Assembly: GCA_016190005.1 (NCBI GenBank) | Contig: JACPRK010000111.1 | Location: forward strand, 1-33,604 | From: Candidatus Wallbacteria bacterium | GTDB lineage: Bacteria; Muiribacteriota; UBA6191; JACPRK01 | Direction of reading: 5' to 3' | Length of the DNA stretch: 33,604 nt | Part shown: piece by piece, positions 7,595-33,482 of the stretch | How positions within the stretch are numbered: the first letter of the stretch is position 1 | How the letters are laid out: every line of letters starts with the position of its first letter | Translations under genes and position numbers: made by a program | The notes under the pieces: generated by a model | What the model was told of the DNA's origin: nothing | Seen by the model: the letters and a program-made list of their open reading frames with translations, nothing else | Databases searched by the model: none

Positions 7595-7596
7595 GG

Positions 7597-11640: not shown

Positions 11641-11668
11641 CGCCTTGCCCCGCGGCCCGGCGCGAGAC

Positions 11669-16174: not shown

Positions 16175-18472
16175 ATGAGAACACTCCTGGCAGTTCCGAT
16201 GCTCCTGGCTTTCGCCGCGGCTTCTCATGCGTGCTGCATCATGATCCCGAAGGAGCCGGACCTGCCGCCGTTGGTGCTGAAAAAGCACAAGGTGCAGGTG
16301 ACAATCGACAACCTCGTCGCCGTCACGAAGGTCGACCAGGTGTTCGCCAACAATACCTCGCGCCAGCTCGAGGCGACTTACGTGTTTCCGCTGCCGGCCG
16401 GCGCCAGCGTCACCGAGTTCGCGCTCTGGATCGACGGCAAACGCCAGAAGGCCGAGATGCTCGAGAAGGAGAAGGCCCGCTCGATCTACGAGGAGATCGT
16501 GCGCCAGCGCAAGGACCCCGGCCTTCTCGAATACGTGGGAGAGAATCTCTTCCAGGCCCGCGTCTTCCCGATTCCCCCGAATGGCGATCAGCGGGTCGAG
16601 ATCGTCATCCAGCAACCGCTGGCGATGGATGCGGGCCTGGCCGAGTACCGCTATCCCCTGAAGGGCTTGCGCGAGAGCCCGCCTCAGGAGCTCACCATCG
16701 ACGTCAGCATCAGCTCCCAGATCCCCATCAAGTCCGTCTACAGCCCGTCGCTGGCCGTGGCCGTCCACAAGACCGACGACCGCACCGCCAAGGCCAGCTT
16801 CGAGGACGCCCGCGCAGTCCCGGAAAACGACTTCTCACTCTTCATCACTTCGAGCGAGAAGGAGTTCGGGCTCAATCTCCTGGCCTCCCGGAAGCCCGGC
16901 GAGGACGGCTACTTCATGCTGATGCTGGCGCCCAAGCAAGAGCTCGACAAGAACGCCATCGTGACGCGCGACGTCTGCTTCGTCTTCGACTGCTCGGGAA
17001 GCATGCGGGGCGAGAAGATGGAGCAGGCCAAGGCAGCGCTCAAGTATTGCGTGCAGGCGCTGAATCCGGGCGACCGATTCAACGTGCTGCGCTTCAGCAC
17101 CGACGTCGACGGATTCGCCCCGAGCCTGCTGGACGCCAAGCCCGAGGAGATCCGGCGCGCCGTGGCCTGGATCGAGAAGCTGGAGGCCGTCGGAGGCACT
17201 GCGATCGATGAGGCGCTTGGGGCCGGCTTCAAGCAGCTCGATGGCAGCACTCGCCCGGCCGTGCTGGTCTTCTTGACGGACGGCAAGCCAACGGTGGGCG
17301 CCACCGACGCGCAAGTCATCGCGCAGCGGGCAGCGAAGAGCAACACCCGGTCTGCCCGGCTCTTCGCCCTGGGCGTCGGCGTCGACCTGAACGCCAAGCT
17401 GCTCGACCAGCTGGCCGAGGACGGCCGCGGCGTTCCGGTCTATGTCGCGCCCCAGGAGGACATCGAGGTGAAGGTCTCCGGCTTCTACTCGAAGATCAGC
17501 CAGCCCGTGTTGACGGACCTGGCGCTCGACTTCGGCAAGATTGCCACATCTCAGGTCTACCCGTCGAAGCTCCCCGATCTCTACCAGGGATCGCAGCTGG
17601 TGCTGTACGGCCGCTACAAGGACGGCGGCGACACGGCAATCAAGCTCTCGGGAACCCGAAACGGCCAGAAGGTCGAGTTCGCCTACGACGCAAAGTTCCC
17701 CGCCGAGGAGCTGGAGCGGGACTTCATTCCCCGGCTCTGGGCAACTCGCCGCGTTGGCTACTTGCTGGATGAAATCAGGCGAAATGGCGAGCAGGCCGAG
17801 CTCAAGGACGAAGTGATCCAGCTGGCGCGCAAGTACGGAATCGTCACGCCCTACACGAGCTACCTGGTCGTCGACGAGCGCGAACAGCTCGCCGCGCAGC
17901 CCGAGCCGCCCATGGACGGCGCGATGCACAGGCAGAAGCGAGACGGCGTCTTCCCAGTCGCCGCCAAGCCGGCACTCGAGGAGTCCCGACGCTCCAGCGA
18001 GTTCGCAGGCGGCGGCGCGGCGGCGCCCAGCGCGCCCGCTCCGGCACAAGCCTGGAGCCCGGCCGACAAGGACGCGGCAGGAGCACCGGGGATGAACCTG
18101 GCCGATTACATCGGCGCCGAATCGGGCGCCCGTGCCGTCGAAGCCTCCAAGGCCGTGCAGGAGCTCAAGTCCGCCGACGCCCCCGGCAAGGCGGAGCGCT
18201 CACGCGCCGCCGAGCGCGAAGTCGAAGGCCGCACCTTCACGCTCTCCGACGGCGTCTGGACCGACACCGCCTACAAGACCGGCATGCCCGAGCTGAAGAT
18301 CAAGTACGGAAGCCAGGCCTACTTCGACATCGCGTTTGGCCGCGCCGATCTCAAGAAGGCGCTGGCCCTGGGCGAGAAGGTCGTCATCGTCGCGAATGGC
18401 AAGGCCCTGATAATCGGCGCCGAGGGTAAGGAAGTCCTCGCCCCCGGCGAGCTCGACGCCTTCCTGAAGTAG
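16175..18472 (+). CDS. Secreted VIT and von Willebrand A domain protein
   Basis: The 765-residue product has a signal peptide (1-19, cleavage near SHA|CC). A VIT (vault/inter-alpha-trypsin) domain follows at about 36-160, with VFPLPAGASVTEFAL and KARSIYEEIVRQRKDPGLLEY. A vWA domain spans about 265-440, with the metal-site motif DCSGSM (272-277), GGTAID and LTDGKP. The MIDAS residues are intact, so it should bind a divalent metal and a protein ligand. A C-terminal region (about 590-765) of Ala/Glu/Lys-rich linker and a small folded end is unassigned. GGAGG lies 8 bp before the ATG. The TPR and small membrane protein genes upstream probably belong to the same unit. The family is widespread and its role is poorly known; envelope integrity or adhesion is a guess. 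Confidence 0.92.
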   Translation: MRTLLAVPMLLAFAAASHACCIMIPKEPDLPPLVLKKHKVQVTIDNLVAVTKVDQVFANNTSRQLEATYVFPLPAGASVTEFALWIDGKRQKAEMLEKEKARSIYEEIVRQRKDPGLLEYVGENLFQARVFPIPPNGDQRVEIVIQQPLAMDAGLAEYRYPLKGLRESPPQELTIDVSISSQIPIKSVYSPSLAVAVHKTDDRTAKASFEDARAVPENDFSLFITSSEKEFGLNLLASRKPGEDGYFMLMLAPKQELDKNAIVTRDVCFVFDCSGSMRGEKMEQAKAALKYCVQALNPGDRFNVLRFSTDVDGFAPSLLDAKPEEIRRAVAWIEKLEAVGGTAIDEALGAGFKQLDGSTRPAVLVFLTDGKPTVGATDAQVIAQRAAKSNTRSARLFALGVGVDLNAKLLDQLAEDGRGVPVYVAPQEDIEVKVSGFYSKISQPVLTDLALDFGKIATSQVYPSKLPDLYQGSQLVLYGRYKDGGDTAIKLSGTRNGQKVEFAYDAKFPAEELERDFIPRLWATRRVGYLLDEIRRNGEQAELKDEVIQLARKYGIVTPYTSYLVVDEREQLAAQPEPPMDGAMHRQKRDGVFPVAAKPALEESRRSSEFAGGGAAAPSAPAPAQAWSPADKDAAGAPGMNLADYIGAESGARAVEASKAVQELKSADAPGKAERSRAAEREVEGRTFTLSDGVWTDTAYKTGMPELKIKYGSQAYFDIAFGRADLKKALALGEKVVIVANGKALIIGAEGKEVLAPGELDAFLK

Positions 18473-18495
18473 GGGCCCGTCAGGGCCCACGCCAT

Positions 18496-18582
18496 GTGAA
18501 ACACGGTGGTGTCTACCTGTACCGGGTTTTCGTAGAAAACCCGGTACAGGTAGACGCCACCGTATTTCACACCGTATCTCAC
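18496..18582. repeat. Palindromic repeat element, copy B, between convergent genes
   Basis: Arms of 36 bp (18496-18531 and 18535-18570, two mismatches) flank a GTA centre. The core is that of copies A and C. At the right edge a 12-bp unit is duplicated in tandem (18559-18570 and 18571-18582, 11 of 12 identical), reaching into the stop codon of the receiver gene. Lying between two gene ends, it may act as a bidirectional transcription stop. Confidence 0.95.
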
Positions 18583-18941
18583 GCGACCGGGATCGACTGG
18601 AGCAACTCTCGAACCTGATCGGCAGTGAACGGCTTGTCCAGGCAGCGCACCTGGGTCCGCGCGAAGAACTCCTGGGTGCTGGGATTGATAGCATCCCCGG
18701 TGGTGAAGACCAGCGACAGGCCGGCCCCCAGCTTCTGTCCGACAATGGCGTCGTAAAGCTGCACACCGTCCATCCCGGGCATTCGGATATCGCTGATCAT
18801 CAGCTGGAATCCCCCCGCGCGCACGGCCTCCAATGCGGCCATCCCGTCGTGCACGACCTGGGTGGTATGACCCAGCCGCTCTATGAGTCGCCCGAGGAAA
18901 TTGGCGACATCTTCCTCGTCATCCACTATGAGAACCCGCAT
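18579..18941 (-). CDS. Single-domain response regulator receiver
   Basis: The 120-residue CheY-like protein has the acidic pair Asp7/Asp8 (VDDEE), phospho-acceptor Asp51 (ISDIRMPGMDG), Thr80-Thr81 and Lys103 (DKPF). It has no output domain, so it works by protein contact or as a phosphorelay shuttle. GGGAGG sits 6-7 bp before the ATG. It is divergent from the TonB-dependent receptor operon at 19197, whose kinases lack a separate DNA-binding partner; it could serve them, but that is inference. Its stop codon overlaps the duplicated edge of repeat copy B. Confidence 0.93.
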   Translation of the reverse strand: MRVLIVDDEEDVANFLGRLIERLGHTTQVVHDGMAALEAVRAGGFQLMISDIRMPGMDGVQLYDAIVGQKLGAGLSLVFTTGDAINPSTQEFFARTQVRCLDKPFTADQVRELLQSIPVA

Positions 18942-19013
18942 GGCGACCCTCCCATTCTCGCGTTACCCGGATGATACCTCGGCCTAGCGCCGGTTGCGAG
19001 TCGTTCGACGGGG

Positions 19014-19099
19014 CCAGACGTGGAAATCCGTACCACTCGACTTGCCCCAATTCTGGAGAGAATTGGGGCAAGTCGAGTGGTACGGATTTGCACGTCTGG
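19014..19099. repeat. Long palindrome with 41-bp arms upstream of the TonB receptor operon
   Basis: Arms 19014-19054 and 19059-19099 match with a single mismatch around a GGAG centre; the inner 31 bp are perfect. The sequence (for instance CCGTACCACTCGACTTGCC in the left arm) is unrelated to the other palindrome family. It lies 27 bp upstream of the operon's -35 and between divergent genes, so it is not placed as a terminator for either. Confidence 0.95.
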
Positions 19100-19126
19100 C
19101 GCGTGCACCCGAACACCACATCCAGC

Positions 19127-19155
19127 TTGACTTGTCGGGGCATGTGGCCTATTGT
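19127..19155 (+). promoter_or_regulatory. Promoter of the TonB receptor/cytochrome operon
   Basis: TTGACT (19127-19132) and TATTGT (19150-19155) are separated by 17 bp. Transcription should start near 19162, giving a leader of about 35 bases with GAGGGAG at 19184-19190. Confidence 0.6.
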
Positions 19156-19196: not shown

Positions 19197-21224
19197 GTGC
19201 ACCCGAGAACTCTTTCAGCTCTACTTTTGTTGGTGTTGTGGCCCGGATTGCCGGGGCTGACGCGGGCGGCGTCGGGTCCCGAGCGGGGGGCCGAGCATGC
19301 TCTGCTGGACGACATTCCCATTGTCAGCTCCGCCGGACGGAGGGCGGAGCCGGTCGCGTCGAGCCCGGGGTTCGTTTCCGTCCTGACGCGCGCGGACATC
19401 CAGGCCAGCGGCGCCCGGAACTTGCCAGAGCTCTTGCGCAGAATGCCGGGAGTCGACGTCTTCTTCCATGACGGCGTCGGCTACGAGGTCTCCTTGCAGG
19501 GTCTGACGGAGCATTACTCCAACAAGACCCTGCTGCTGATCGACGGCAAACCATTCACCGCTACACTCCGTGGCTCCGACAGCTTCGACCTGGTGCCGAT
19601 CGTCCTGCAGGAGGTGGAGCGCATCGAGGTCGTGCGCGGACCGGTGTCGGCACTCTACGGGTCCAACGCCATGGCAGGGGCGATCAACGTGGTCACACGC
19701 GCCGTGGCGCCGGACGCCCCGGCGGAGTACTGGACCACCGTCGGCACGGGCAACGAGTACAGCCAGGGAGTGCGCAGCTCCGGGCGCGCCGGACGTGGCC
19801 GCTTTTCCGTGGTCGCAGAACACAAGGTGGCCGGTGGCTTCGGCCCGCAGCTCGACGCCAACCTGGCGCCAGTGCCCACCCGCTTCCGCACCGACCACTT
19901 CGACAACGGTGTCGTCAAGGCCGCCTTCGAGACGGTCCTCGGCGAGAAGACCGAGCTTCGGCTGGATGCTTCTGCTGTCCGGCTCGACGCGGACGCTCTC
20001 ATGCTCACGTCACCTTCCGGCGCCGACACGCTATCGCAAGCGCTGCGCTTTTCCGCCGAGGCCAGTCGCCGCGACGGCCGCCACACGCGAAAGTTGCGGA
20101 TAATCCGGGACGCCCGGCAGGTCGGCAGCGACCTCGGCCCCGTCTTCTCTGCCGATGAGCGGCGCACCTCCTTCGACAATGGTTTCTTCGACCTGGAGCT
20201 GTTCGACCAGATCGACCATGGGCGCCACCAGTTCACCTTCGGTGCGGGATTTCGCCACCTGTACGCGGAGGGCTTCCTGATTGAGCCCGACTCCCCGGAC
20301 ATCGAGCGCTTCACGGCCTTCGCGGACTGGGCCGCTAGTCTGTCCGACCAGCTGCGCCTGGACGTCTCGTTCCTGGCCCTCCGGCAAGACGACGGATCGC
20401 CTTGCGCCAGCGCACGGATGGCCGCTCGCTACGACGTCACCAACCGCGACACGATGCGCTTCGGCCTGGGCAACTCTTTCCGAACGCCAGACCCTCTGCC
20501 CCTGTACTTTCACCGAGTCACGGCCATTGGAACCGCGACTGCCTCCCCGCCCCTCCTCGGGCCAAACCCGGACCTCGGCGACGAAGAGGCGTCTACCTAC
20601 CAGGCCAGTCTGGAGCATCGCGACTCGCGCGGCCGGTTCGCCTTCGAGACTTCCCTCACCCGACTCACGGGGTTGATCGACCGGCGCGCTGTGGGGCCAG
20701 CGACGCTCACCTTTCCGAGCGGTCGAGTCGTCCCGACCGTGCGGGGCCTCTTCGTGAACGTTCCGGAACCCCTGCATACTCACACAGTCATCGCCGCCGC
20801 CGAACGCCGTCTCTCCAGGAGGACGGACCTGACCCTCCGCATCACCCACCAGGAGGTGGACGACAGCCGCGGCAACCCGCCGGCTCTCTTCGCCGCACCG
20901 GCCAAGAAGTACGGCCTGGGCCTCCGCCAGAGCGTGGGCAAGCGCGACGTTCTCGATCTCGACCTTCGCCGGGTCTCCTCCTACGCGACAGCCGACGTCG
21001 AGCAGTCGGTGCTGGCGCCTCGCCAGGTCCCTGGCTACGACGTTCTCGACCTGGCCTACTCCAGAGTTTTCGAGCCCGACCGGCGTCTCATCCTGGCGAT
21101 CAACAACCTCTTCGACGAGCGCCACGTCGAGTTCCTCGGCCCCGTCAACGCCTTCGGAGCCGACGCGGGCAACGGCCTCGCCCTGGAGCGCCGCGTCACC
21201 CTGATGTACCAGGCGACCTTCTGA
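19197..21224 (+). CDS. TonB-dependent outer-membrane receptor
   Basis: The 675-residue product has a signal peptide (about 1-24), a possible TonB box near IPIVSSAGRR, a plug domain (about 45-165, with IDGKPF and VVRGPVSALYGSNAMAGAINVV, quoted here in part: RGPVSALYGSNAMAGAI), and a 22-strand-type barrel ending in the aromatic YQATF. It is of the BtuB/siderophore-receptor class and should import a scarce ligand using the TonB energy system; the ligand is unknown. The GTG at 19197 is chosen because GAGGGAG lies 6 bp upstream; the longer frame from 19152 would start inside the -10. It is the first gene of a seven-gene array, and its stop overlaps the next ATG by one base. The pairing with a binding protein and sensor kinase suggests ligand sensing as well as uptake. 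Confidence 0.93.
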   Translation: MHPRTLSALLLLVLWPGLPGLTRAASGPERGAEHALLDDIPIVSSAGRRAEPVASSPGFVSVLTRADIQASGARNLPELLRRMPGVDVFFHDGVGYEVSLQGLTEHYSNKTLLLIDGKPFTATLRGSDSFDLVPIVLQEVERIEVVRGPVSALYGSNAMAGAINVVTRAVAPDAPAEYWTTVGTGNEYSQGVRSSGRAGRGRFSVVAEHKVAGGFGPQLDANLAPVPTRFRTDHFDNGVVKAAFETVLGEKTELRLDASAVRLDADALMLTSPSGADTLSQALRFSAEASRRDGRHTRKLRIIRDARQVGSDLGPVFSADERRTSFDNGFFDLELFDQIDHGRHQFTFGAGFRHLYAEGFLIEPDSPDIERFTAFADWAASLSDQLRLDVSFLALRQDDGSPCASARMAARYDVTNRDTMRFGLGNSFRTPDPLPLYFHRVTAIGTATASPPLLGPNPDLGDEEASTYQASLEHRDSRGRFAFETSLTRLTGLIDRRAVGPATLTFPSGRVVPTVRGLFVNVPEPLHTHTVIAAAERRLSRRTDLTLRITHQEVDDSRGNPPALFAAPAKKYGLGLRQSVGKRDVLDLDLRRVSSYATADVEQSVLAPRQVPGYDVLDLAYSRVFEPDRRLILAINNLFDERHVEFLGPVNAFGADAGNGLALERRVTLMYQATF

Positions 21225-22150
21225 TGGCACGTCCCGTCCCACTCGAAGCGCTCTGCGGCTGCCTGCTGTTCCTCTCAGGCACCGCGTTCGCGGAGCCCGC
21301 AGTGCTCTTCGTGGGCGAGGAGGAAGCCCCGAAGTTTGCGGAGTTCGGGGGTCAGATCCGCTCGGCGCTCTTGCGTGCCGGCAATCCGGAGATCCTCTCG
21401 TGGCCGCTGGACCAGGCGATGGGGCGACGTGGTCCCCTCCCCGAGAGCTTGCGACTGATCGTGGCGCTGGGCACCCATCCGGCCCGTTGGGCCCGGGACA
21501 ACCGCGGAGGTCTGCCCATGGTCTTCGGCATGGTGCTCAACCCTCAGCCCGACCTTGTGGAGTCGCTGGAGCGACCGGCTCCTGGAATCATGGGCGCGTG
21601 TCTCAACCTCCCGGCCGAGCCCATCGTGGCCGTCCTCCGCAAGCTTCTTCCGCGCGTCCGGCTCATCGGTTTGCTGCACACGTCGCGCGAGACCCTGGGG
21701 CCCGTCCGGGAAATCGAGGTCGTTTCGGCGCGCGTGGGGCTGGAATGCAGGGCGGTGGCCGTTGACTCGCCCAACGACATCGAGCCCGCGCTGCGTCCGC
21801 TGCTTCCGGCCGTCGACCTGGTCTGGGCGCTGGCGGACTCCAAGGTCTTCACTCCGGCGGGCGCGCGCGTGGTCCTGGAGCGGGCGATGGCCGCGCGCGT
21901 GCCGGTGCTGGGCTACTCCAAGCCGATGGCGACGGCTGGGGCGCTCGTGGCCATCTATCCCGACTTCGCCGAATCGGCGAACCAGGCCGCCGAGCTGGCC
22001 GCCGAAGCGCTCCAGAAAGGCGCAGCCACGGTCCGCCCCATCGCGCGGCCGACCAGACCAATCGTCGCCGTCAACCGCCGGGTTCTGGATCTGCTGGGGC
22101 TGAGCCTGTCGGAAGAGGCCTCTTCGCTGGTCCAGGAGTGGATTCAGTGA
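21224..22150 (+). CDS. Periplasmic ABC-type substrate-binding protein (ABC_sub_bind-like)
   Basis: The 308-residue product has a signal peptide (about 1-23, ending TAFA) and the two-lobed pattern of the ABC_sub_bind/TrpX-like family: a FVGEE start, an ALGTHPA turn, repeated VWALADSK and PVLGYSKPMATAGA segments, and a C-terminal RPTRPIVAVNRRVLDLLGL. The usual family has this ending with an IxVN motif. No transporter permease or ATPase gene accompanies it. Instead it overlaps a membrane histidine kinase gene by 4 bp (GTGA), so it probably presents its ligand to that kinase. It shares one base with the receptor stop. Confidence 0.85.
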   Translation: MARPVPLEALCGCLLFLSGTAFAEPAVLFVGEEEAPKFAEFGGQIRSALLRAGNPEILSWPLDQAMGRRGPLPESLRLIVALGTHPARWARDNRGGLPMVFGMVLNPQPDLVESLERPAPGIMGACLNLPAEPIVAVLRKLLPRVRLIGLLHTSRETLGPVREIEVVSARVGLECRAVAVDSPNDIEPALRPLLPAVDLVWALADSKVFTPAGARVVLERAMAARVPVLGYSKPMATAGALVAIYPDFAESANQAAELAAEALQKGAATVRPIARPTRPIVAVNRRVLDLLGLSLSEEASSLVQEWIQ

Positions 22151-24051
22151 CCGAGTCTCGACTCTGGCATCGGCTGCATCTCCTCGGACTGGAAGGGCGC
22201 GCCGTGCTGGCCGCGTCGTCGATCCTGGTCGCGGTCGTGGCGATACTGGTCACGATGAGCTATGCGCAAGCCACCTACCTGCTTCGGCGAGTGACCGAGG
22301 CCCGGCTCGAGAGCCTGGGGCGGACGCTGGCGGACACGCTCGACTTCGCCGTGCTCGTGGGCAACCGCGAGGCCATCGAACAGACGATCTCCAAGCTGAT
22401 GGCCCACGACCCCCTCGTGTACTGCGTTGTCGAGGACGCGCACGGCAAGCTCCTGCTGCACAAGCGGGCCCCCCGCTACTTCGGACCCATTCCCGAGAGC
22501 TGCACGGCGCCGCCCCGGTTTTCGGCCACGATCCTGGAGCGCATCGACATCGTCACGTCGCCTGCCCTGGATGATCCGGAGGACGCCGTGCTCGCCGAGG
22601 TTCCCAGACAGCAGGGGACGAAGGACATCGGCCGGATCCGGCTCGGCCTGAGCTGCGAGGACTTGCAGGCCGAGGTCGAGCACGCCCGTTTCCGGGCTGG
22701 GGCAACGGCACTCTGGATTGTGGTGTTGGTCTACTTGCTGACCCGCATGCTGATGCGGAAGCTGACGTCGCCGCTCAGGGAAATGGAACACTTTGCCGAG
22801 CGAGTTGCGGCCGGGGACCTCTCGCATGCGGCCCCGACCGTGGGTGCCGGCGAGATCGGTTCGCTGGCGACGTCGCTGGAGCGGATGGTCCACTCATTGG
22901 CCGCGAGCCGCGAGGAGATTGCCCGCTACAACCGCGAGCTCGAGGACAAGGTCCGCGACCGCACGCGGGAGCTGGAGCAAGCCCACGATCTCACGCGCCG
23001 CGTTCTCGACGAGATCCCCCTCGGCCTGGTGGTCACCGGCGCCGATCAGGTCGTGCAGTACCACAACCCCGCGTTCGAGGAGCTCTTCGGGAAGACCGGT
23101 CCGCGCCTGCTCGAGGGCATCGATGGAGTGCTCGAACCCTCCGTCAGCGCCATCCGGGCATGGCCGCTGGCCGAGGGGCAAGGGCTCGAGAGCCTGCCTC
23201 TCGAAGCCATGTGGGCCCCCAGAGATAGAAGGGCAATGGTGCTGGAGATGCGGCGCGCCACCATCATGCCGGACCCTTCGACCTCCCACGTCTGGATCTT
23301 CCACGACGTCACCGAGCAACGCGAGATCCACCGCAAGGTCGCGCAGGCCGGGCGCCTGGCCGCCCTGGGCGAGCTGGCCGCCGGCGTCGCTCATGAGGTG
23401 AACAACCCGGCCGACGGAATCATGGGGATCTCCCGCATCGTCCGGCAACGCTCCGAGGGCGATGCGCGGCTCGTGAAGGACATGCGAATGGTGGAGGATT
23501 GCGCCAGGAGGATTTCCGCAATCGCGCAGAACCTGCTACTCTTCTCCCGCCAGGAGCAGACGCAGTTCCAGCCCCAGGGCATCGTCGAAGGCATTCGACG
23601 AACCGTCTCGCTGATCCAGCGCCAGCTCGAGCTCAGGCGCCAGGTGACGGTGGAGTGCTATCTGCCCCCCGACCTGCCGCAGGTGCGCGTGAGAGGGAAC
23701 CAGCTGGAACAGATCTGGCTCAATTTGATGAACAACTCGGCCCAGGCCCTCGATGAGCTTCCGCCCGATCGCCCGCGCCGAATCCATGTTTCGGCCCGCG
23801 CCGTGGACGACGGGTCCGCCGTCGAGGTCAGCGTCTCCGACACGGGCCCCGGAATTCCTCCCGCCCTGCTCGACCGGATCTTCGAACCCTTCTTCACCAC
23901 GAAGGGCCGCCTGAAGGGCACCGGGCTGGGCCTCTCCATCAGTTACGGCATCGCGCGTGATCACGGCGGCGACATCACGGTCCGCTCCGTGCAGGACGAG
24001 GGGACCACGTTCGTCGTCCGGCTGCCGGCCGCCACGGGGCAAGTGCCATGA
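22147..24051 (+). CDS. Membrane sensor histidine kinase (HAMP-PAS-HisKA-HATPase)
   Basis: This 634-residue inner-membrane kinase has two membrane segments (about 20-42 and 184-204) enclosing a periplasmic sensor of about 140 residues. A HAMP domain (205-258), a coiled coil (255-285) and a PAS domain (285-390) follow. The phospho-acceptor is His416 in GVAHEVNNP. The ATP-binding domain shows the N box (NLMNNSAQAL), SDTGPGIP, EPFFTTK and GTGLGL. The GTG at 22147 is preferred because AGGAG lies 9 bp upstream and it overlaps the binding-protein stop; GTG 22138 is too close to that site. The gene overlaps the next by 4 bp (ATGA). The binding protein encoded before it is the likely periplasmic input. 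Confidence 0.95.
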   Translation: MTESRLWHRLHLLGLEGRAVLAASSILVAVVAILVTMSYAQATYLLRRVTEARLESLGRTLADTLDFAVLVGNREAIEQTISKLMAHDPLVYCVVEDAHGKLLLHKRAPRYFGPIPESCTAPPRFSATILERIDIVTSPALDDPEDAVLAEVPRQQGTKDIGRIRLGLSCEDLQAEVEHARFRAGATALWIVVLVYLLTRMLMRKLTSPLREMEHFAERVAAGDLSHAAPTVGAGEIGSLATSLERMVHSLAASREEIARYNRELEDKVRDRTRELEQAHDLTRRVLDEIPLGLVVTGADQVVQYHNPAFEELFGKTGPRLLEGIDGVLEPSVSAIRAWPLAEGQGLESLPLEAMWAPRDRRAMVLEMRRATIMPDPSTSHVWIFHDVTEQREIHRKVAQAGRLAALGELAAGVAHEVNNPADGIMGISRIVRQRSEGDARLVKDMRMVEDCARRISAIAQNLLLFSRQEQTQFQPQGIVEGIRRTVSLIQRQLELRRQVTVECYLPPDLPQVRVRGNQLEQIWLNLMNNSAQALDELPPDRPRRIHVSARAVDDGSAVEVSVSDTGPGIPPALLDRIFEPFFTTKGRLKGTGLGLSISYGIARDHGGDITVRSVQDEGTTFVVRLPAATGQVP

Positions 24052-25628
24052 CGGAACCCAAGCCAAGAGTCCTGGTCGTCGACGACGAGCCCGCGCTTCT
24101 CGTGGCCCTGCAAGACCTCTTCACACTGGAGGGCTACGAAGTCACGGCCTGCCAGGACCCTCGACAGGCCCTGACGGAACTGGAGCAGGGCGAGTATGAC
24201 TGTGTCGTCACGGACCTGCTGATGCCGGGCGTCGGCGGCCTGGAGATCGTCCGCACCACTCACCAGAAGTGGCCGGAGACGGGAATCGTCGTCATCACGG
24301 GGGCGCCCGAGCTGACCACGGCGATCGAGGCGATGCAGTGCGGCGCCAGCGACTACGTCATCAAGCCGGTCTTCGAGCGCGGCGTGGAGTTCGTCGTGCG
24401 CCGCGTGCTCGAACAGACCGCGATGCGGCGCGCCATCCGCCGCAAGAACGCGGAGCTTTCCCTGCTGCTGGAGGCAAGCCAAAGGTTTGGCCTGGCCGAG
24501 GACCTCCAGGAGGTCGCCGAATCCAACGACGGCTTCATCCAAAGATTGCGTGCTCTGGGCGATCCCGAGGACTGCCGCTCGACCCTGGCCAACATAGCAA
24601 CCCAGACTCGCGAGCGTGTCATGACGCGCCGGCTGCGAGAGCAGGCACGGCTGGGAGCTCTGCTGGAATCGCATCCCGACGGCATCGTCGTGCTCGACGA
24701 GAGCGGCGAGCTCTTGGTCGTGAGCTCGCGGGCCCGGGAGCTGTTGGGCAACGGCCTCGCAGGCAAATCGTCCCCTGCGCTGACACGGCTGCGCGAGATT
24801 GCGCTCGGCGGAGGCGCCGGCGAGTTCCGGAGCCCGGCCGACCCGACGCGGCTGCTGCAAGTCCGGACCGCGCAGGTCATGGACGGCGACAGGTCCGCCG
24901 GCATGATCGCCACGCTGGCCGACGTCACCGAAAACCGCGATCGCGAGCTCCAGGCCTTCACGAGCGCGCGGCTGTCGGCCATCGGTGAGATTGTGGCCGG
25001 TGTCTGCCACGAGCTGAACAACCCGCTTGCCATCATCATCGGCCTCTCCGAGGAGCTGATCTCGGACGCTCCCCATCCCTGGTCCGACCGCAGCCGGCGC
25101 ATCCTGGAGTCGGCCTCCCGATGCGCCGAGTTCGTGCGCAAGCTGGTCCCGATCGTGCGCCGCGCGCGCGAGGCGCCAGCCCCCCTCGACCTGCCCCATC
25201 TCCTCCGCGCCGTCCTGGGCGTGCTCAACGGTCAGCTCGTGCAGCACAGCATCGAGACGGACCTGGACCTGCAGCCGGTCCAGCGCGTCCACGGTCTGGC
25301 CAGCGAGCTCAACGAGGCCATGCTCGCCCTGCTCCTCAACGCCATCGACGCGATGCCCAGGGGCGGCAAGCTCTCCGTCGCCACCCGCCCCGACGGCGAC
25401 GGTCACGTGACCCTGGACATCGGAGATACTGGCGCCGGAATCGCCGAGTCGGCCCGCGGCCGCATCTTCGATCCCTTCTTCACCACCAAGGCCGGGACCC
25501 GCGCCACCGGCCTGGGTCTGACCGTCGTCCACTCGGTCTGCACCCGGATGGGCGCCGCGATCTCGGTCGACAGCACGCCCGGAAACGGAGCCCGCTTCCT
25601 GCTTCGCTTCCCCGCCGTCCACTCCTGA
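24048..25628 (+). CDS. Receiver-PAS-histidine kinase hybrid
   Basis: This 526-residue soluble protein has an N-terminal receiver (1-120; Asp12/Asp13, phospho-acceptor Asp56, Lys106), a helical linker, a PAS-like domain (about 200-295), and a kinase core with His321 in GVCHELNNP, GDTGAGI, DPFFTTK and TGLGLTVV. With the receiver first, it can be phosphorylated by the upstream membrane kinase and then pass a signal through its own kinase core. No DNA-binding output is present, so a further receiver is required. The candidates in the window are those at 18579-18941 and 29130-29585. It overlaps the membrane kinase gene by 4 bp. Confidence 0.94.
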   Translation: MTEPKPRVLVVDDEPALLVALQDLFTLEGYEVTACQDPRQALTELEQGEYDCVVTDLLMPGVGGLEIVRTTHQKWPETGIVVITGAPELTTAIEAMQCGASDYVIKPVFERGVEFVVRRVLEQTAMRRAIRRKNAELSLLLEASQRFGLAEDLQEVAESNDGFIQRLRALGDPEDCRSTLANIATQTRERVMTRRLREQARLGALLESHPDGIVVLDESGELLVVSSRARELLGNGLAGKSSPALTRLREIALGGGAGEFRSPADPTRLLQVRTAQVMDGDRSAGMIATLADVTENRDRELQAFTSARLSAIGEIVAGVCHELNNPLAIIIGLSEELISDAPHPWSDRSRRILESASRCAEFVRKLVPIVRRAREAPAPLDLPHLLRAVLGVLNGQLVQHSIETDLDLQPVQRVHGLASELNEAMLALLLNAIDAMPRGGKLSVATRPDGDGHVTLDIGDTGAGIAESARGRIFDPFFTTKAGTRATGLGLTVVHSVCTRMGAAISVDSTPGNGARFLLRFPAVHS

Positions 25629-25735
25629 ATCGCACAATCTGTGCAATTCGGCGCCCGATCCTGTCGATAGATGGGATGGAAAGGCAGGCAGGGACTGCAG
25701 GTCGACGCTTGCCTCGCCGAAAGTGAGGCCAGCCT

Positions 25736-26188
25736 CTGGTCATCCCCCACAAGCTCGCGGCTGCCGCGCTCGCGCTCCTGGCGATCGCTGGGCTGGGCTG
25801 CGCGGATCTCGAGACGCCGCTGGGTCCGATCGTACGGCCACAGTCCGCGCCGCGCATCGTCGCCATCGAGCCGCGGACCGTGACGCGCGGCGTCGCTTCC
25901 ACTCTGGTGGTGAGCGGAACCGGCTTTCTACCCGAACTGACGGCCTTCGTCGGGACGGCCGCCCGCGAAACGCCGGAATTCCCGGCGACCGAGGTCCGGC
26001 CCGTGGAGTTCGTCGCTTCGACGCGGGCCGTGCTGCACCTGCCGTCAAACCTGCCGGCAGGCCGGCTCGACGTCACCCTCATCAATCCGGACGACGGCCT
26101 GGCCCGCTTGACGCGCGGACTGACCGTGGTCGTCCCCGTCGTGAAGGCTCCCCAGGGGGAGGTACAACGTGAAGCTCGGAACCAGTAG
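25736..26188 (+). CDS. IPT/TIG-domain lipoprotein with no standard start codon
   Basis: The frame encodes a lipoprotein signal, HKLAAAALALLAIAGLGC, whose Cys (25799-25801) follows LxG-type residues, then an IPT/TIG immunoglobulin-like domain (PRIVAIEP through VTLINPDDGLARL). The in-frame stop at 25724-25726 lies just upstream, and between it and the lipobox there is no ATG, GTG or TTG. A CTG at 25736 lies 7 bp after GTGAGG and would give 150 residues. The only standard start, GTG 25880, would remove the signal and lipobox. Possible explanations are a rare CTG start, a sequence error or a decayed start. The 3' end overlaps the cytochrome gene by 20 bp, so it belongs to the same operon and probably sits at the outer or inner membrane beside the conduit. 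Confidence 0.65.
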   Translation: MVIPHKLAAAALALLAIAGLGCADLETPLGPIVRPQSAPRIVAIEPRTVTRGVASTLVVSGTGFLPELTAFVGTAARETPEFPATEVRPVEFVASTRAVLHLPSNLPAGRLDVTLINPDDGLARLTRGLTVVVPVVKAPQGEVQREARNQ

Positions 26189-27356
26189 GCGGGGGCTTTG
26201 GGGCGCGCTCATCACGGCGGCCGTTGCCGCCTGGGGCGTGACGCTGCTCTTCGGCGTATCGCAGGAAGAGATGGCGCGCTACGGGTTCGGAAGCGAGGTC
26301 GCGCGCACGGCATCGACCCAGCCCCAGGATCTGGTCCCACCTCCGAAACGGCGCATCCCGCCGCCCCCTATCTTGCCTCGGCGGACTGAGCTGCCGGCGG
26401 GGTTGGTCCCGGCACCGACAAGGCCGACCGCCCGCATTCTCCTGAAACCCCGCGGCACGCCCCGCCCCGAGCCGCCGGCAAGCATCCCCACGCGTCCCAC
26501 CTTGGACGAGGCGCTGCGCGAGATCTTCCCCGACCAAGTTACGGCCCGCTACGCAGGCGACGCGGCCTGTCTCGATTGCCACGGCGAGAAGGGCCACGAC
26601 CAGCCGCACTCGCTCTATGGCCTCATCAAGAACGCCAAGAGCGTCGAGCCTGATCGAAGGGGCTGTGAAGGCTGCCACGGCCCGGGCAGCGAGCACGTCG
26701 CCAACTTCGGCCCGATCGTCAACCCGGCGAAGCGCGATCACCTCGCCGTCAGCCGGCTCTGCCTCTCATGCCACGAGGACCAGCGGCTGGTGAGGCGGAT
26801 GGAGTGGCACATCACGGGCCACCAAGAGGCCTTCGTCAGCTGCACGACATGTCACAGCGTCCACAAGCCGAAGGCCAACCCTTCGCTCCGCGACGAGCCG
26901 GACCGCCTCTGCCTGAAGTGCCACCAGGACCAGTGGGCCAAGTTCCAGCTCCGCTCCCGGCACCCGCTCAAGCGCGAGGGCTCCGACGCGCTCTCCTCGC
27001 AGCGCGAAGGCAAGGTTCGCTGCATCGACTGCCACCAGCCCTACTCCACGCGCAACGGCGCCGACCTCACACGTCGCGGCGGCAAGGAGCTTTGCACCAA
27101 GTGCCACGCGGAGACGCGCGGCCCGTTCCTCTTCGAGCACGACAGCGTCAGCGGCGACCTCACCCACCAGTGCACGACCTGCCACGCCCCGCACGGTTCC
27201 CCCAACCGTGACTTGCTGATCGTGCAGGGGCGCGGCCTCTGCCTGCGCTGCCACACGGACCGCGTCTCTCACCGCCCGGGCCCGAGCTGCTACAACGCGC
27301 AATGCCATCGCGACCTCCACGGTTCGAACTTGAACCAGCTCTTCCTGCCGAGGTGA
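26169..27356 (+). CDS. Multihaem c-type cytochrome with ten haem-binding motifs
   Basis: The 395-residue product has a signal/anchor (about 8-29), a Pro-rich linker (52-110) and a haem region. Nine CxxCH motifs occur at 134, 166, 198, 225, 248, 285, 309, 335 and 358, and a CxxxxCH motif (CYNAQCH) at 374-380, giving ten potential haems. Many extra His residues could be distal ligands. The count, spacing and neighbouring barrel recall DmsE/MtrA-type decahaem cytochromes, which carry electrons through an outer-membrane sheath. The linker could span the periplasm from an inner-membrane anchor. GGGGGAGG lies 6 bp before the GTG start. The gene overlaps the lipoprotein gene and is followed 4 bp later by the barrel gene. 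Whether all ten haems are attached is untested. Confidence 0.94.
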   Translation: MKLGTSRRGLWGALITAAVAAWGVTLLFGVSQEEMARYGFGSEVARTASTQPQDLVPPPKRRIPPPPILPRRTELPAGLVPAPTRPTARILLKPRGTPRPEPPASIPTRPTLDEALREIFPDQVTARYAGDAACLDCHGEKGHDQPHSLYGLIKNAKSVEPDRRGCEGCHGPGSEHVANFGPIVNPAKRDHLAVSRLCLSCHEDQRLVRRMEWHITGHQEAFVSCTTCHSVHKPKANPSLRDEPDRLCLKCHQDQWAKFQLRSRHPLKREGSDALSSQREGKVRCIDCHQPYSTRNGADLTRRGGKELCTKCHAETRGPFLFEHDSVSGDLTHQCTTCHAPHGSPNRDLLIVQGRGLCLRCHTDRVSHRPGPSCYNAQCHRDLHGSNLNQLFLPR

Positions 27357-27360
27357 TTTG

Positions 27361-29115
27361 ATGAGCGCTCGGCTGGCGGCGGTCTGGTTGGCGGTGGTCC
27401 TGGCCACCTTCGTCGCTGGGACTACTGCCTGGGCCGAGGAGCCGTCGAGTACGGCCCCTCGGCGTGCCATCCCGCTTCCCGCGCCCAGGCAGGCCCTCCC
27501 CGCGGCGAGCCAGGAGTCGACGGAGCCCTCCACCGGCGAGACTAGCTTCGGCGGCGCTATCGGCGTGCGGGCCATGTTCTGGATGGACCGCACGGACAAC
27601 CTGGTAGAACAGATGGACTGGTACCGCGAGCCCTACCCGCTGTCGCTCGGGCGCCTCGACCTGTATCGCAACTTCTCCACGCTCACGTCACTCGACCTGA
27701 AGCTGCGCAGTCCCTCGGACCAGGACTGGGGAGCCGGGATGGCGTTGAGGAGCCTTCCCTACTTCACCACGCAGCACAACTTCACCGACTCTACCTTCTA
27801 CAACCTGCCGATCCCGCTCGAGACCGGGCGGCAGCGGTACTGGGGCGACTTCAAGCTGCGCAAGTTCGGTCAGGTACCGGTGAAGCTCGCCTACGACGTG
27901 CACGCACTGCAGGGGATCGGTTTCGACAAGGACCGCTCCTACTACGACGAGCAGTACTCCCTCGACGCGCACGCGCACATGCGGGGGTTCGACCTCGACG
28001 TCAGCGTACCGCGCCTGGATTACCACGACCGACACGATCGCTCCAACGACACCGAGACGCGCGGCTTCGCGCTCTCGGCCACGCGAACGCTCCTGGACGG
28101 AGACGCGGACTTGCAGGCCAGCTTCCGGCGCACGCTCGCCTATCTGGAGTCGGTGGCGCAAGAGAGTCAAGTGGACACGTGGGAGCTGCGCGGCCTGATG
28201 TACGAAATCTTCGGCGTCGAGGGCTTCAAGCTCGACACCCGCGCCACCTACCGGGACACGCCGCAGGATCTGGGGCTCACGGCCCGCACCGACAGCCTGC
28301 TGAACGCCAAGGCGATCCTGTCACTGACTCAGGGCAGCGGCTACAGCGTCCAGGTGGGGCGAGAGCATCGGAAAGTCCGCCGCGAGCGCCTGACGCGGGC
28401 CGGGTTCGACCGCGTCGGGATGGTCGCCACGGCCACGCGTGACGACCTGGCCTCCTTCCGGCTGACCGACGAGCCGCGCTACGACGACCTCTTCGGACGC
28501 GCCTTCTTCCGCTTCAAGCCGTGGTTCTCGGCCACCTTCTTCCAGAAGGAGACCTCGATGGAAGACCAGCCGCCCACGGACCTGGTCCGCTTCCACTCCC
28601 CGGCGCTCTTCTTCGATCGCCAGCGGGATCGCCGTCTGGATCTGCAACTGCAGCCGCTGACGAACATCGGCGTCAACTTCCGCCTGCACGAGCAGCGCAA
28701 CAAGAACCTGGCGCGCATCTACCGAGAGGTCGTTCGTAACAAGCAGACCGACTTCTACTGGCTGCTGGTCAACAGCCGCCTGAACATCGGCGGCAGCATC
28801 GCCTACTTGGAGATCAGCCCCTCCACCGACGAGGTGTTCGCCGCCCGTGAGAACGCCACGACGCGCGGCGGCTCCATCAGCTATCAGCTCTCGCCCGAGC
28901 TGTCCGTGTTCGGAGACTACACGGTCATCGATTCGGAGGGGTTCCGGCTCTCCACCGAAAGGATCACCAACATCGGCCTGGAAGCCGAGACCGGCACCCG
29001 CCACCGGCTCACCTGGCGATGCGCCTTCACGGTCGACGAGCAGCTCTCGCAGCCGCGCAACCTGGAGGACTTCGACGTCCGCGGAATCAACATCAGCGGG
29101 GAAGCCCAGTTCTGA
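27361..29115 (+). CDS. Outer-membrane beta-barrel, probable porin partner of the cytochrome (MtrB/PioB-like role)
   Basis: The 584-residue product has a signal peptide (about 1-25, ending WAEE), a Pro/Ser-rich N-terminal stretch, then many alternating amphipathic strands with aromatic girdle residues, ending in GEAQF with the C-terminal Phe recognised by the Bam machinery. The length and the place directly after a ten-haem cytochrome gene match the MtrA/MtrB-type porin-cytochrome pairs. The N-terminal CxxC of Shewanella MtrB is absent, so it is at best a divergent member. The ATG at 27361 has GAGGTGA about 5 bp upstream. No surface (MtrC/OmcA-like) cytochrome follows. It ends the operon and converges on the receiver gene at 29130. 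The barrel fold is firm; the conduit role is inference from context. Confidence 0.82.
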   Translation: MSARLAAVWLAVVLATFVAGTTAWAEEPSSTAPRRAIPLPAPRQALPAASQESTEPSTGETSFGGAIGVRAMFWMDRTDNLVEQMDWYREPYPLSLGRLDLYRNFSTLTSLDLKLRSPSDQDWGAGMALRSLPYFTTQHNFTDSTFYNLPIPLETGRQRYWGDFKLRKFGQVPVKLAYDVHALQGIGFDKDRSYYDEQYSLDAHAHMRGFDLDVSVPRLDYHDRHDRSNDTETRGFALSATRTLLDGDADLQASFRRTLAYLESVAQESQVDTWELRGLMYEIFGVEGFKLDTRATYRDTPQDLGLTARTDSLLNAKAILSLTQGSGYSVQVGREHRKVRRERLTRAGFDRVGMVATATRDDLASFRLTDEPRYDDLFGRAFFRFKPWFSATFFQKETSMEDQPPTDLVRFHSPALFFDRQRDRRLDLQLQPLTNIGVNFRLHEQRNKNLARIYREVVRNKQTDFYWLLVNSRLNIGGSIAYLEISPSTDEVFAARENATTRGGSISYQLSPELSVFGDYTVIDSEGFRLSTERITNIGLEAETGTRHRLTWRCAFTVDEQLSQPRNLEDFDVRGINISGEAQF

Positions 29116-29129
29116 ACCGGGGCGGGGCG

Positions 29130-29585
29130 TCAGCCGGCGGGCTCGGGCAGCTCGACGATCTCGAGCCAGTACTTGCCGAGCGTGCGGACGACGTCGAGCA
29201 GTTTCTCGAAGCGCACCGGCTTGCAGATGAAAGAGTTGACGCCCAAGTCGTAGCTGCGGACGACGTCTTCCTCGGCCTCGGAGCTGGTCATCACGATGAC
29301 CGGGATACGCCGCAGTGCGGGGTCGCTCTTGATCTCGCGGAGCGCCTCGCGGCCGTCCTTGCGGGGCATGTTCAGATCGAGCAGGACCAGCCCGGGCGCC
29401 GGAGCCGAGGCCGGAAGAGCATAGGCGCCCCGGCGGCGGAGATAGTCCAGTAGCTCCTCGCCGTCCGCGACAAAGACGAGAGGATTCAGCAATCGACTCT
29501 CGCGAAAGGCCTTGGCCGCCAGGAGCCGGTCCTCCTCGTCGTCCTCGGCCATCAGGATCGTAACGGGTTTGGTCGGACGTGTCAT
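29130..29585 (-). CDS. CheY-like receiver (Rcp1 type)
   Basis: The 151-residue single receiver domain shows EDDEED (14-19), phospho-acceptor Asp70 (LLDLNMPRKDG), Thr100-Ser101 and Lys122 (CKPV). The insert between strands 2 and 3 and the LNMPRKDG motif are typical of Rcp1-type regulators that partner PAS or phytochrome histidine kinases. It has no output domain. The gene overlaps its kinase gene by 4 bp (ATGA), making the pair almost certain. It is the last gene of a three-gene minus-strand unit. Confidence 0.94.
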   Translation of the reverse strand: MTRPTKPVTILMAEDDEEDRLLAAKAFRESRLLNPLVFVADGEELLDYLRRRGAYALPASAPAPGLVLLDLNMPRKDGREALREIKSDPALRRIPVIVMTSSEAEEDVVRSYDLGVNSFICKPVRFEKLLDVVRTLGKYWLEIVELPEPAG

Positions 29586-31644: not shown

Positions 31645-31854
31645 CCCCGCTGGACGAGGGGCCGCGCCCCTCGGCCATTCCGAACAGTATCCTTGCCCGC
31701 CCGCAACCGCAAGTACCGCCGCCCCCCGCCGTTCGAGGCGCGCGCGCCAATCTGGTAACCAAAGTTGCCCATGCAGCGAAAACTCCCGAAAGCCCGCGCC
31801 GGAAGTGCCGCGTCCTGCACCCAGCCCGCCATTTCGCATGCCCCTCTTGCCCCC

Positions 31855-31910
31855 CCTGACTCCTGAAGCCTGATCCCTGAAGCCTCAAGCCTCACTCCTC
31901 AAGCCTGACT
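31855..31910. repeat. Eight tandem 7-bp units, consensus CCTSANN
   Basis: Without a gap the units are CCTGACT, CCTGAAG, CCTGATC, CCTGAAG, CCTCAAG, CCTCACT, CCTCAAG and CCTGACT. The array ends 10 bp before a -10 like TATACT. Unit length equals that of the array at 13911-13945 but the sequence differs. The rest of 31645-31936 contains no gene I can support. Confidence 0.9.
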
Positions 31911-31919
31911 TGCGGGGCC

Positions 31920-31925
31920 TATACT
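31920..31925 (+). promoter_or_regulatory. Putative -10 element of the sigma factor gene
   Basis: TATACT matches 5 of 6 to the -10 consensus. No convincing -35 is visible; the position where it should lie falls inside the 7-bp repeat array. Transcription would begin near 31932, only five bases before an in-frame ATG at 31937. Confidence 0.45.
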
Positions 31926-31975
31926 GCCCGCGTCACATGGGTGCAACGGCGGGGGCGGGCAGCGCGTACAAGCAC

Positions 31976-32545
31976 ATGGATGTGGAACCCGACATCGAGG
32001 CGATCGCAGCGAGCGTCGCAGCAGGCGAGACGGAGCGGTTCGAAGCCATCGTCCGCCATTTCCAGCGGCCGCTGTTCAACTTCATCTTGAATCGAGTGCG
32101 CGACATGGAGACGGCCGAGGAGCTGGCGCAGGAGACCTTCCTGAAGGCGTATCGCAGCCTGGCCAGTTTCGACGGGCGCAGATCCGGGTTCAAGACCTGG
32201 CTCTATCGCATCGGGCTGAACCTCTGCCTGGACCACTTCCGCCGGCGCCGCGTGCGCGCGGCAGAAGAGGAGAAGCTCGCGCACGAGAATCGGGCAGAAA
32301 ACTCGCCAGCGCCTGCGGACCGGCTGGCCCAGCGGGATCAGCTGATGCGGCTGCTGGGGCGGGTTGCCGGCGACGAGGCGGAGCTGCTCCTGATGCGGTA
32401 CGCCGACGATCTCACCTATGAAGAGATGGCCGTGGTGACCGGTCTGGGCGAGAGCACGCTCCGCAGCCGCGTGCACCGGGCGCTGCGCAAGCTGCAGGCG
32501 CTGGTGGCGCCGGCCGGGAAGGGGGCGGGGCGCGATGTCGTGTGA
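31976..32545 (+). CDS. ECF-family RNA polymerase sigma factor
   Basis: The 189-residue protein has region 2 (about 18-90, with NRVRDMETAEELAQETFLKAY, seen from about 38, then FKTWLYRIGLNLCLDHFRRRR shown here in part as TWLYRIGLNLCLD) and region 4 (about 125-180, with LLLMRYADDLTYEEMA and a helix-turn-helix ending TLRSRVHRALRKL). The start is uncertain: ATG 31976 (MDVEPD) fits the family best, while ATG 31937 would add 13 residues and be nearly leaderless. Neither has a ribosome site. The gene overlaps the anti-sigma gene by 11 bp, so the pair is co-translated and the sigma should be held inactive until a signal arrives. The promoter target is unknown. Confidence 0.92.
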   Translation: MDVEPDIEAIAASVAAGETERFEAIVRHFQRPLFNFILNRVRDMETAEELAQETFLKAYRSLASFDGRRSGFKTWLYRIGLNLCLDHFRRRRVRAAEEEKLAHENRAENSPAPADRLAQRDQLMRLLGRVAGDEAELLLMRYADDLTYEEMAVVTGLGESTLRSRVHRALRKLQALVAPAGKGAGRDVV

Positions 32546-33482
32546 GCGGTATCGGACGGCCTTGGCGGAGCGGGCCGACGGGGAATCGCCGGGCACGCCC
32601 GGGTCGGAGCTCGAGGCCCACCTGGCGGGCTGTGACGGCTGCCGCCGCGAGCTCGAGGCGCTGCGGCGAGCAGTCGAGACCCTGCGAGCGGACATTTCCG
32701 TGGAGCCACCCGAGTCCATGACGCGCAGCGTCATGGAGCGCGTCCGGGCGGAGGCGCGTCCCGTACCGAGGGTGGGAAAGCAAGGCGGGAGCGCTTCCTG
32801 GGTACCCGCCGATTGGTGGCGGTTTGCGACGGGCCTGGCGGTGGGCGCCGTCGCGACCGTGGCTGCGCTCTGGCTGGGCGGCGACCGTCCGGGTCAGGGA
32901 GTCGCACCACAGTCTGCGCCCGTGGTTACCCGGGTCCCGGACGTCGTCCCCACGCCGGCGCCCTCGCCGATTCCACCCACGGGCGGTCTCCAGGTCGCCT
33001 CGGGCGGCCGCGGCGAATGGCGTCAGGCGGCCCCCGCCCCGGCATTGCGCGCGGGTGACACGGTGCGCGCCGTCGGCGCAGCCGGCCAGCTGCTTCTGGC
33101 CACCGGCACGCGAGTGACTGTCTCCCCGGACTCAGCCCTCGTCTTCGAGAGCGCCGCCCAGCTCACGCTCACCCGCGGCCGGCTCGAGCTCCACGCCGTC
33201 TCTCCGATCGCCGTGCGAACGCCAAACGCCAAGGTCTCCGTGCTCGGCACGCGATTCAGCGTGGAGCTTTCGTCCACGGGCCACACCCTGATCCACGTCA
33301 CGTCCGGCCGCGTTGCCGTCCTCGAGCTCGCCACAGGCAGCAGCAAAGAGCTAGCCGCCGGGCAGTCGCACGACTGCCCGCCCGCCGCGTCCCCAAGCGC
33401 GGCGCCTCCTTCACTCCCCAGCTCGAGCGCGCCCCCCGCGACGCCCCCGCGGCCCGTCACCACCATCCAGGAAGGCTTCTAG
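32535..33482 (+). CDS. Zinc-finger anti-sigma factor with FecR-like periplasmic domain
   Basis: The 315-residue membrane protein has an N-terminal zinc anti-sigma motif (His29, Cys33, Cys36 in EAHLAGCDGC) that should bind the ECF sigma, one membrane segment (about 97-116), and a periplasmic FecR-type domain (about 165-275, with VRTPNAKVSVLGTRFSVEL, then VTSGRVAVLE). It ends in a Pro/Ser/Ala-rich tail. FecR domains relay signals in iron-type surface signalling, often from a TonB-dependent receptor; one is encoded at 19197, but a link is only a guess. The ATG at 32535 lies inside the sigma gene. Repeat copy C follows 59 bp after the stop. Confidence 0.9.
   Translation: MSCERYRTALAERADGESPGTPGSELEAHLAGCDGCRRELEALRRAVETLRADISVEPPESMTRSVMERVRAEARPVPRVGKQGGSASWVPADWWRFATGLAVGAVATVAALWLGGDRPGQGVAPQSAPVVTRVPDVVPTPAPSPIPPTGGLQVASGGRGEWRQAAPAPALRAGDTVRAVGAAGQLLLATGTRVTVSPDSALVFESAAQLTLTRGRLELHAVSPIAVRTPNAKVSVLGTRFSVELSSTGHTLIHVTSGRVAVLELATGSSKELAAGQSHDCPPAASPSAAPPSLPSSSAPPATPPRPVTTIQEGF

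Follow-up and report, generated by a model that had tools for sequence, protein, structure and literature searches.

Gene content of the locus

The stretch analyzed here (the window, 33,604 nucleotides of Candidatus Wallbacteria DNA) is an entire contig of a genome, G000, that comprises 4.48 Mb in 212 contigs and is 72.7% complete. Seven consecutive plus-strand genes occupy positions 19197-29115, and their open reading frame (ORF) coordinates and domain matches bear out the gene content that a first-pass annotation of the same DNA had described. That annotation took the seven genes for one unit, in which an outer-membrane electron conduit is fused with its own receptor and sensory relay. We favor a different reading, to which we assign a probability of roughly 0.7: two separate modules adjoin here, module A (the last three genes), a conduit, and module B (the first four), a receptor with a phosphorelay. 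The genes, with the sites that precede them, are:

19127..19155, plus strand: weak sigma-70-like site upstream of the TonB receptor gene (TTGACT-17-TATTGT; two found, against a mean of 0.7 in shuffles)
19197..21224, plus strand: TonB-dependent receptor, GTG start (Plug 4.8e-23, TonB barrel 6e-10)
21224..22150, plus strand: PF04392 periplasmic binding protein (Pfam 1.3e-17)
about 22147..24051, plus strand: membrane histidine kinase with HAMP, PAS, HisKA and HATPase domains (Pfam; simple hydropathy)
24048..25628, plus strand: receiver-HisKA-HATPase hybrid (Pfam)
25629..25672, plus strand: conserved block ATCGCACAA-N5-GCRATT-N12-CTGTCGATAGAT before the lipoprotein gene (comparison of G000, G001 and G002)
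25736..26185, plus strand: small IPT/TIG-like lipoprotein, CTG start (NCBIfam CoaZ repeat; 70% identical in G002)
26169..27356, plus strand: MtrA/DmsE-like ten-haem cytochrome (haem motifs, NCBIfam, solved match, tree)
27361..29115, plus strand: MtrB-like outer-membrane barrel with 26 predicted strands (predicted model, profile–profile comparison)

The cytochrome–barrel pair

The cytochrome carries nine CXXCH motifs and one CX4CH motif (C374-C379-H380), about the ten haems that mark an MtrAB-type conduit; in an alignment, the tenth position reads CX4CH in five of six relatives and CX5CH in the other. Its N-terminus is hydrophobic, and a proline-rich linker is present. The best NCBIfam matches are to NF041028 (GSU2203 family, 7.3e-55) and TIGR03508 (DmsE family, 9.2e-51), and the best match among solved structures is 6r2q_A (E 1.8e-31). 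Chain A is listed with an odd molecule name; going by the entry title ("Structure of the Mtr complex"), we read it as MtrA and chain B as MtrB. Across all six frames of the window there is no CXXCH motif outside the cytochrome gene, and hence no outer-surface multihaem cytochrome of the MtrC/OmcA type. Elsewhere in G000, one contig (L181, L182) holds multihaem open frames with 15, 15, 14, 11, 8, 7, and 4 CXXCH motifs.

The barrel was modeled from a 15-row alignment that added barrels from four further genomes (G054, G059, G060, G061) and four Armatimonadota loci. The resulting model has a predicted local distance difference test score (pLDDT) of 78.4 and a predicted template modeling score (pTM) of 0.66, and contains 26 predicted strands of at least 8 residues. 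Its top match in the PDB is 6r2q_B (E 6.4e-10), with template modeling scores of 0.64 by query length and 0.58 by target length; the other 49 matches listed score 0.27–0.46 by query length and are mostly TonB receptors and LptD. The first-pass annotation had likened the last two genes to MtrA and MtrB, and had stated that a barrel too narrow to hold the cytochrome would count against its proposal. The predicted fold argues against such a narrow barrel, with MtrB as its best solved match, and it supports the MtrA/MtrB-type assignment together with the cytochrome's match to 6r2q_A. Sequence and model together suggest that the pair probably builds a protein wire, or electron conduit, across the outer membrane.

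Profile–profile comparison of the barrel gave 92.8% against a set comprising the two barrels of G054 and that of locus L077, 65.2% against Armatimonadota, and 73.5% against the barrels of a group of conduits that bear a PF04392 binding protein (described below). That group's barrels in turn reach 98.9% against a Shewanella set, and two of three scanned match PF11854; by these comparisons, the tie between the window's barrel and Shewanella-type barrels is an indirect one, via the PF04392-bearing group. Values were 0.8% for an Acidobacteria set, 0.7% for a mixed deltaproteobacterial set, and 0.2% for a TonB-receptor control.

The third gene of module A was described by the annotation as an IPT/TIG lipoprotein. 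A small lipoprotein-like gene is indeed present, and its TIG assignment is weaker than had been stated, scoring 13.0 bits against a Pfam cut-off of 20.9; the NCBIfam CoaZ repeat scores 32.5 bits against a cut-off of 30. Reading back in frame from the cysteine behind the hydrophobic segment to the preceding stop gives no ATG, GTG, or TTG, and from its sequence the gene seems to begin at CTG 25736.

The relay genes and their boundary with the conduit

Three genomes were compared with the window: G001 and G002, of the same genus, and G003, of the same order. G001 holds all seven genes in the same order, with 88–98% identity. In G002 (74% complete), the order is a VWA gene, the lipoprotein (70%), the cytochrome (76%), the barrel (70%), and a sigma/anti-sigma pair, with no receptor, binding protein, kinase, or hybrid between the VWA gene and the conduit genes. 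G003 (78% complete) has two cytochrome–barrel pairs, both without the relay in the stretches fetched. The window's binding protein has no match in G002 or G003, and the best match to its kinase is 34% identical in G002 versus 93% in G001. The barrel itself was found in 4 of 56 genomes, G000 counted; of the 8 genomes of the class, 4 have it. Conversely, two other loci of the phylum carry relay-type sets without a cytochrome in the stretches fetched: L162 runs receptor, PF04392 protein, HAMP kinase, receiver, and hybrid kinase, and L164 runs receiver-kinase hybrid, receptor, and PF04392 protein, with opposite-strand kinases on both sides. The idea of a conduit fused with receptor and relay as a single seven-gene unit is not upheld, because cytochrome and barrel stand without the upstream genes in relatives as close as a member of the genus. 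Judged from these sequences, gain of the relay in the line of G000 and G001 fits the state of G002 and G003 best. As a separate observation, two further loci of the phylum (L156 12653-15070 and L160 6053-8056) have open frames that match PF04392 as well as PF00871 (acetate kinase), an odd fusion or an annotation overlap.

The 107-bp gap at 25629-25735 separates the two modules. The block within it keeps identical spacing in G000, G001, and G002 even though the upstream gene differs (receiver-kinase hybrid or VWA gene), and at up to 3 mismatches it is found once in each of these genomes and nowhere in G003. Judging from the conserved block, the conduit probably has a promoter or regulatory site of its own, with a second transcription start in the gap, and the annotation's claim that all seven genes are transcribed from one promoter did not hold up. 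Relay-free cytochrome–barrel pairs and a separate start in the gap, of which the second is probable, are two of the three results that the annotation itself had named as refuting its proposal. Since there is a single copy per genome, and one in the window, the block shows no sign of being a general regulatory site, and a recurring regulon motif was rejected. In G002, the gene immediately after the barrel encodes an extracytoplasmic function (ECF) sigma factor, which may be the one that uses the block; there is no second copy before the sigma gene in the window.

Flanking features of the window include the following:

7594-7660: third palindrome, with 32-nt arms that are 97% complementary
16175..18472, plus strand: VIT/VWA-domain protein (Pfam VIT 3.1e-32, VWA), which adjoins the conduit genes upstream in G002 (synteny)
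18495..18571: REP-like palindrome bordering the relay module on its left (palindrome and core search)
18579..18941, minus strand: stand-alone receiver, divergent from the relay genes (Response_reg 5.1e-20; 90% identical in G001)
19013-19100: second palindrome, almost perfect (42-nt arms), in the interval from the divergent receiver to the TonB receptor; G001 has a similar one at the same place
29130-29585, minus strand: stand-alone receiver, convergent with the barrel
29582-30928, minus strand: PAS histidine kinase, convergent with the barrel
30925-31839, minus strand: protein of unrecognized family, third gene of the minus-strand set after the barrel
31910..33482, plus strand: ECF sigma factor and zf-HC2/FecR anti-sigma protein (Pfam), directly behind the barrel in G002

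The minus-strand two-component set at 29130-31839 lies behind the barrel in G000 and G001 and is absent from that place in G002, so that the flanks of the conduit differ between species on both sides. Copies of the REP-like palindrome occur in the window at 2182-2252, 11605-11641, 18495-18571, and 33542-33604, the first inside a minus-strand open frame (1293-3185) and the last at the end of the contig, which breaks off within it. The exact core, ACCGGGTTTTC-N1-6-GAAAACCCGGT, has 23 copies in G000, 28 in G001, and none in G002 or G003. In G001, contig C44 begins inside the palindrome and contig C16 ends 110 bases past the VWA match, its last bases differing; the two contigs may join at the palindrome, and it is likely, though not proved, that G001 has the same layout as the window.

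The composition of module B suggests how it may work. The TonB receptor consists of Plug and barrel only, with no N-terminal signaling domain in Pfam searches extended to E 5, and FecA-type signaling through it was rejected for that reason. No ATP-binding cassette (ABC) permease or ATPase was matched by Pfam beside the binding protein in the window, and its gene is the sole PF04392 match found in the 72.7%-complete genome. By simple hydropathy, two hydrophobic segments of the membrane kinase flank a loop of about 150 residues. The binding protein thus stands beside a two-transmembrane kinase with no adjacent transporter, as in binding-protein-activated kinases, and the missing permease and ATPase make docking on that kinase the natural interpretation. 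Solute-binding-protein-activated receptors are described as widespread (PMC9602780). The window shares with them a transporter-less binding protein adjoining a sensor kinase with a periplasmic loop; unlike in those receptors, docking in the window is something that we infer only.

The two-module reading can be put as follows. In module A, the cytochrome would be threaded through the 26-stranded barrel, allowing electrons to pass between the periplasm and the outside. In module B, the TonB receptor would let a ligand in and the binding protein would capture it; the loaded protein would then dock on the periplasmic loop of the kinase rather than feed an ABC transporter, and phosphate would move to the hybrid kinase and perhaps also to nearby stand-alone receivers. 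Module A would be the conserved part, starting from its own site in the 107-bp gap, and only some members of the genus would have module B next to it. Functional coupling of module B to module A is plausible, at slightly below even odds. Pfam finds no DNA-binding domain in the kinase, the hybrid, the two stand-alone receivers, or the second kinase, which leaves control of conduit transcription by the relay without a visible last step. The annotation's proposal that the relay controls electron transfer is unproven, while its general idea gains support from sensor-bearing MtrA/MtrB-like conduits in other bacteria.

Conduits and sensors in other bacteria

These conduits were found by scanning named genomes with an alignment of the cytochrome; we retained the best 80 loci of at least 363 confirmed relatives, out of at least 596 stretches. 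The 80 loci hold about 1004 non-overlapping ORFs of at least 120 residues; a barrel candidate is present in 72, and 64 of those have at least 1200 bases beyond the barrel. No close relative of the window is among them (the best segments are 38% identical, and near records may be left out of the scan). In 11 of the 80 (L088, L093, L099, L108, L109, L110, L111, L112, L136, L139, L148), a PF04392 binding protein is encoded directly behind the barrel, that is, in the next plus-strand frame of at least 420 residues. All 11 score above the Pfam cut-off, and a binding-protein profile at 1e-5 found nothing further in the 80 loci. The gene that follows is a methyl-accepting chemotaxis protein with a HAMP domain in six (L088, L110, L111, L112, L136, L148); three others have a HAMP histidine kinase after a second binding protein, of the PhnD type (PF12974; L099 13875-14783, L108 11822-12739, L109 9918-10799). 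The next gene encodes a stand-alone receiver in L139 and a 13-haem protein in L093.

In a tree of 88 cytochromes (the 80 named loci and eight sequences from the window and the G genomes), all 11 fall into one clade of 13 (100/100). The other two members are L085, on a contig that stops about 1.3 kb past the cytochrome, and L138, which has no PF04392 gene. The cytochromes of the window, G001, G002, and G003 form a separate clade (100/100), which has G054, L077, and Armatimonadota as its neighbors and lies far from both the 11 and Shewanella. In the binding-protein tree, the 11 group together at 85/95, below the level that we mark with a star, on one long branch; the window's protein is isolated, and shared descent with conduit-linked or receptor-linked binding proteins was rejected on that ground. 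Six of the 11, aligned to the window's protein, are 16–20% identical to it. Since the sensor-bearing clade lies far from that of the window and its gene order is different, these sequences are most simply explained if the pairing of a conduit with a PF04392 protein and a sensor arose twice; a single old gain followed by many losses is less economical. We tentatively suggest, at odds clearly short of even, a broader proposal: that the pairing arose at least twice, as cytochrome–barrel–binding protein–sensor in Nitrospirota and deltaproteobacterial genomes and as a receptor–binding protein–kinase relay placed before the conduit in the window's genus, and that the binding protein may read an electron shuttle, a metal chelate, or another cue of a usable acceptor and steer movement or use of the conduit.

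The window resembles these 11 loci in having an orphan PF04392 binding protein with a conduit, and 9 of the 11 also have a HAMP membrane sensor; it is unlike them in gene order and in cytochrome clade, and no TonB receptor was matched in them. With MtrAB(C), PioAB, MtoAB, and DmsEF, the window shares a ten-haem cytochrome followed by a large barrel, the two best solved matches, and the predicted strand number. It differs from those systems in its extra IPT-like lipoprotein and proline-rich linker, in the absence of an MtrC-like cytochrome from the window, and in the distance of its cytochrome clade from Shewanella. An ECF sigma factor with a FecR-type anti-sigma protein lies nearby, as in FecA-FecIR, but the window's receptor lacks the signaling domain. 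In Geobacter sulfurreducens, the esn genes (GSU1704, GSU2220, GSU2222, GSU3376) are located apart from those of the ExtABCD conduit. EsnABCD, a chemosensory network of a methyl-accepting chemotaxis protein, CheW- and CheA-like proteins, and a diguanylate cyclase, is needed for growth on electrodes and, as the window's relay might, ties sensory proteins to the use of extracellular electron acceptors; unlike here, the available part of that account names neither a binding protein nor a TonB receptor (PMC5585712). OrfR and OrfS of the same species are regulators encoded with porin-cytochrome (omcB) clusters, as here, but the part of that source available describes transcription factors rather than a receptor and phosphorelay; the main text of this 2014 survey of porin-cytochrome clusters, in the portion available, does not mention chemotaxis, histidine kinases, substrate-binding proteins, or TonB (PMC4245776). 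In the literature searched, which in part was seen only in extract and had subscription journals and preprints largely outside it, neither a PF04392 binding protein with a sensor nor a relay with a TonB receptor was described as being encoded together with a conduit.

Several results weigh against the two-module reading, or against the identity that it gives to module A. The cytochrome falls under both curated NCBIfam cut-offs (TIGR03508, 172.8 versus 192.2 bits; NF041028, 186.4 versus 325). The barrel has no Pfam or NCBIfam match above cut-off, PF11854 (MtrB_PioB) included, and its direct membership of these families was rejected; its profile reached a best E of only 0.59 against solved sequences, and profile–profile comparison with a Shewanella/Aeromonas/Gallionellaceae set gave 0.5%, which is no direct match. 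A first barrel model, built from 5 sequences, had a pLDDT of 33.5 and was discarded. The pair is MtrAB-like in anatomy, yet short of the profile cut-offs for family membership. Regarding the boundary, only short gaps separate the genes of each module, and the longer one of 107 bp is itself compatible with read-through; the order kept in G001 indicates a neighborhood that is stable within part of the genus; PF04392 proteins with membrane sensors behind other MtrA/MtrB-like conduits suggest that more than mere chance lies behind the position of B next to A; and the state of G002 could reflect loss of the relay rather than an older condition, since the G002 and G003 genomes are incomplete.

In the nearest rival of the two-module reading, a receptor-kinase set came to lie next to the conduit, close to a boundary that bears repeats, and the two have no functional link. 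We regard this as a serious minority view. Matches to the window's kinase number 96 in G001, 88 in G002, and 119 in G003, and such abundance makes a chance kinase neighbor less unlikely; a REP-like palindrome whose core is absent from G002 marks the left edge of the relay, and the binding protein is an isolated branch. Chance would, however, have to place the only PF04392 gene detected in the genome at this very spot, to preserve the order in G001, and to produce the recurrence of PF04392 proteins and sensors next to other conduits. This recurrence is the strongest argument, by analogy, that the window's neighborhood may mean something.

A second alternative concerns the conduit rather than its neighbors: module A might serve electron uptake, as PioAB and MtoAB do, or an extracellular reductase such as dimethyl sulfoxide reductase (DmsEF), and not metal reduction. 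Such a role would fit the lack of an outer-surface multihaem cytochrome in the window, and GSU2203 and DmsE are the closest named cytochrome families; but neither a reductase nor an Fe(II)-oxidation gene was recognized among the scanned neighbors, and several multihaem proteins encoded elsewhere in G000 might supply the rest of a path to the outside. We consider it less likely than not. Least probable of all is the one seven-gene unit of the first-pass annotation, in which uptake and sensing of a ligand control extracellular electron transfer: conserved order in G000 and G001 and the convergent pairing of PF04392 proteins (11 of 80) and sensors (9 of those 11) with MtrAB-like conduits in other phyla speak for it, but the relay-free conduits of G002 and G003, the conserved block in the gap, the lack of a DNA-binding domain in the relay, and conduit-free relay sets in the same phylum make it improbable.

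Two adjoining modules therefore remain our preferred reading of the locus. The window adds a divergent MtrAB-like conduit from a sparsely sampled lineage, and shows that conduits and ligand-sensing modules can combine and separate within one genus. The sensor-coupled conduits found elsewhere are a recurrent class that merits its own study. For bacteria that respire solid acceptors, a chemoreceptor and a binding protein whose genes immediately follow those of an outer-membrane conduit would offer a concrete, testable sensor of whether an acceptor is within reach. If the binding protein reads such cues as proposed, cells would sense what their wire can reach.

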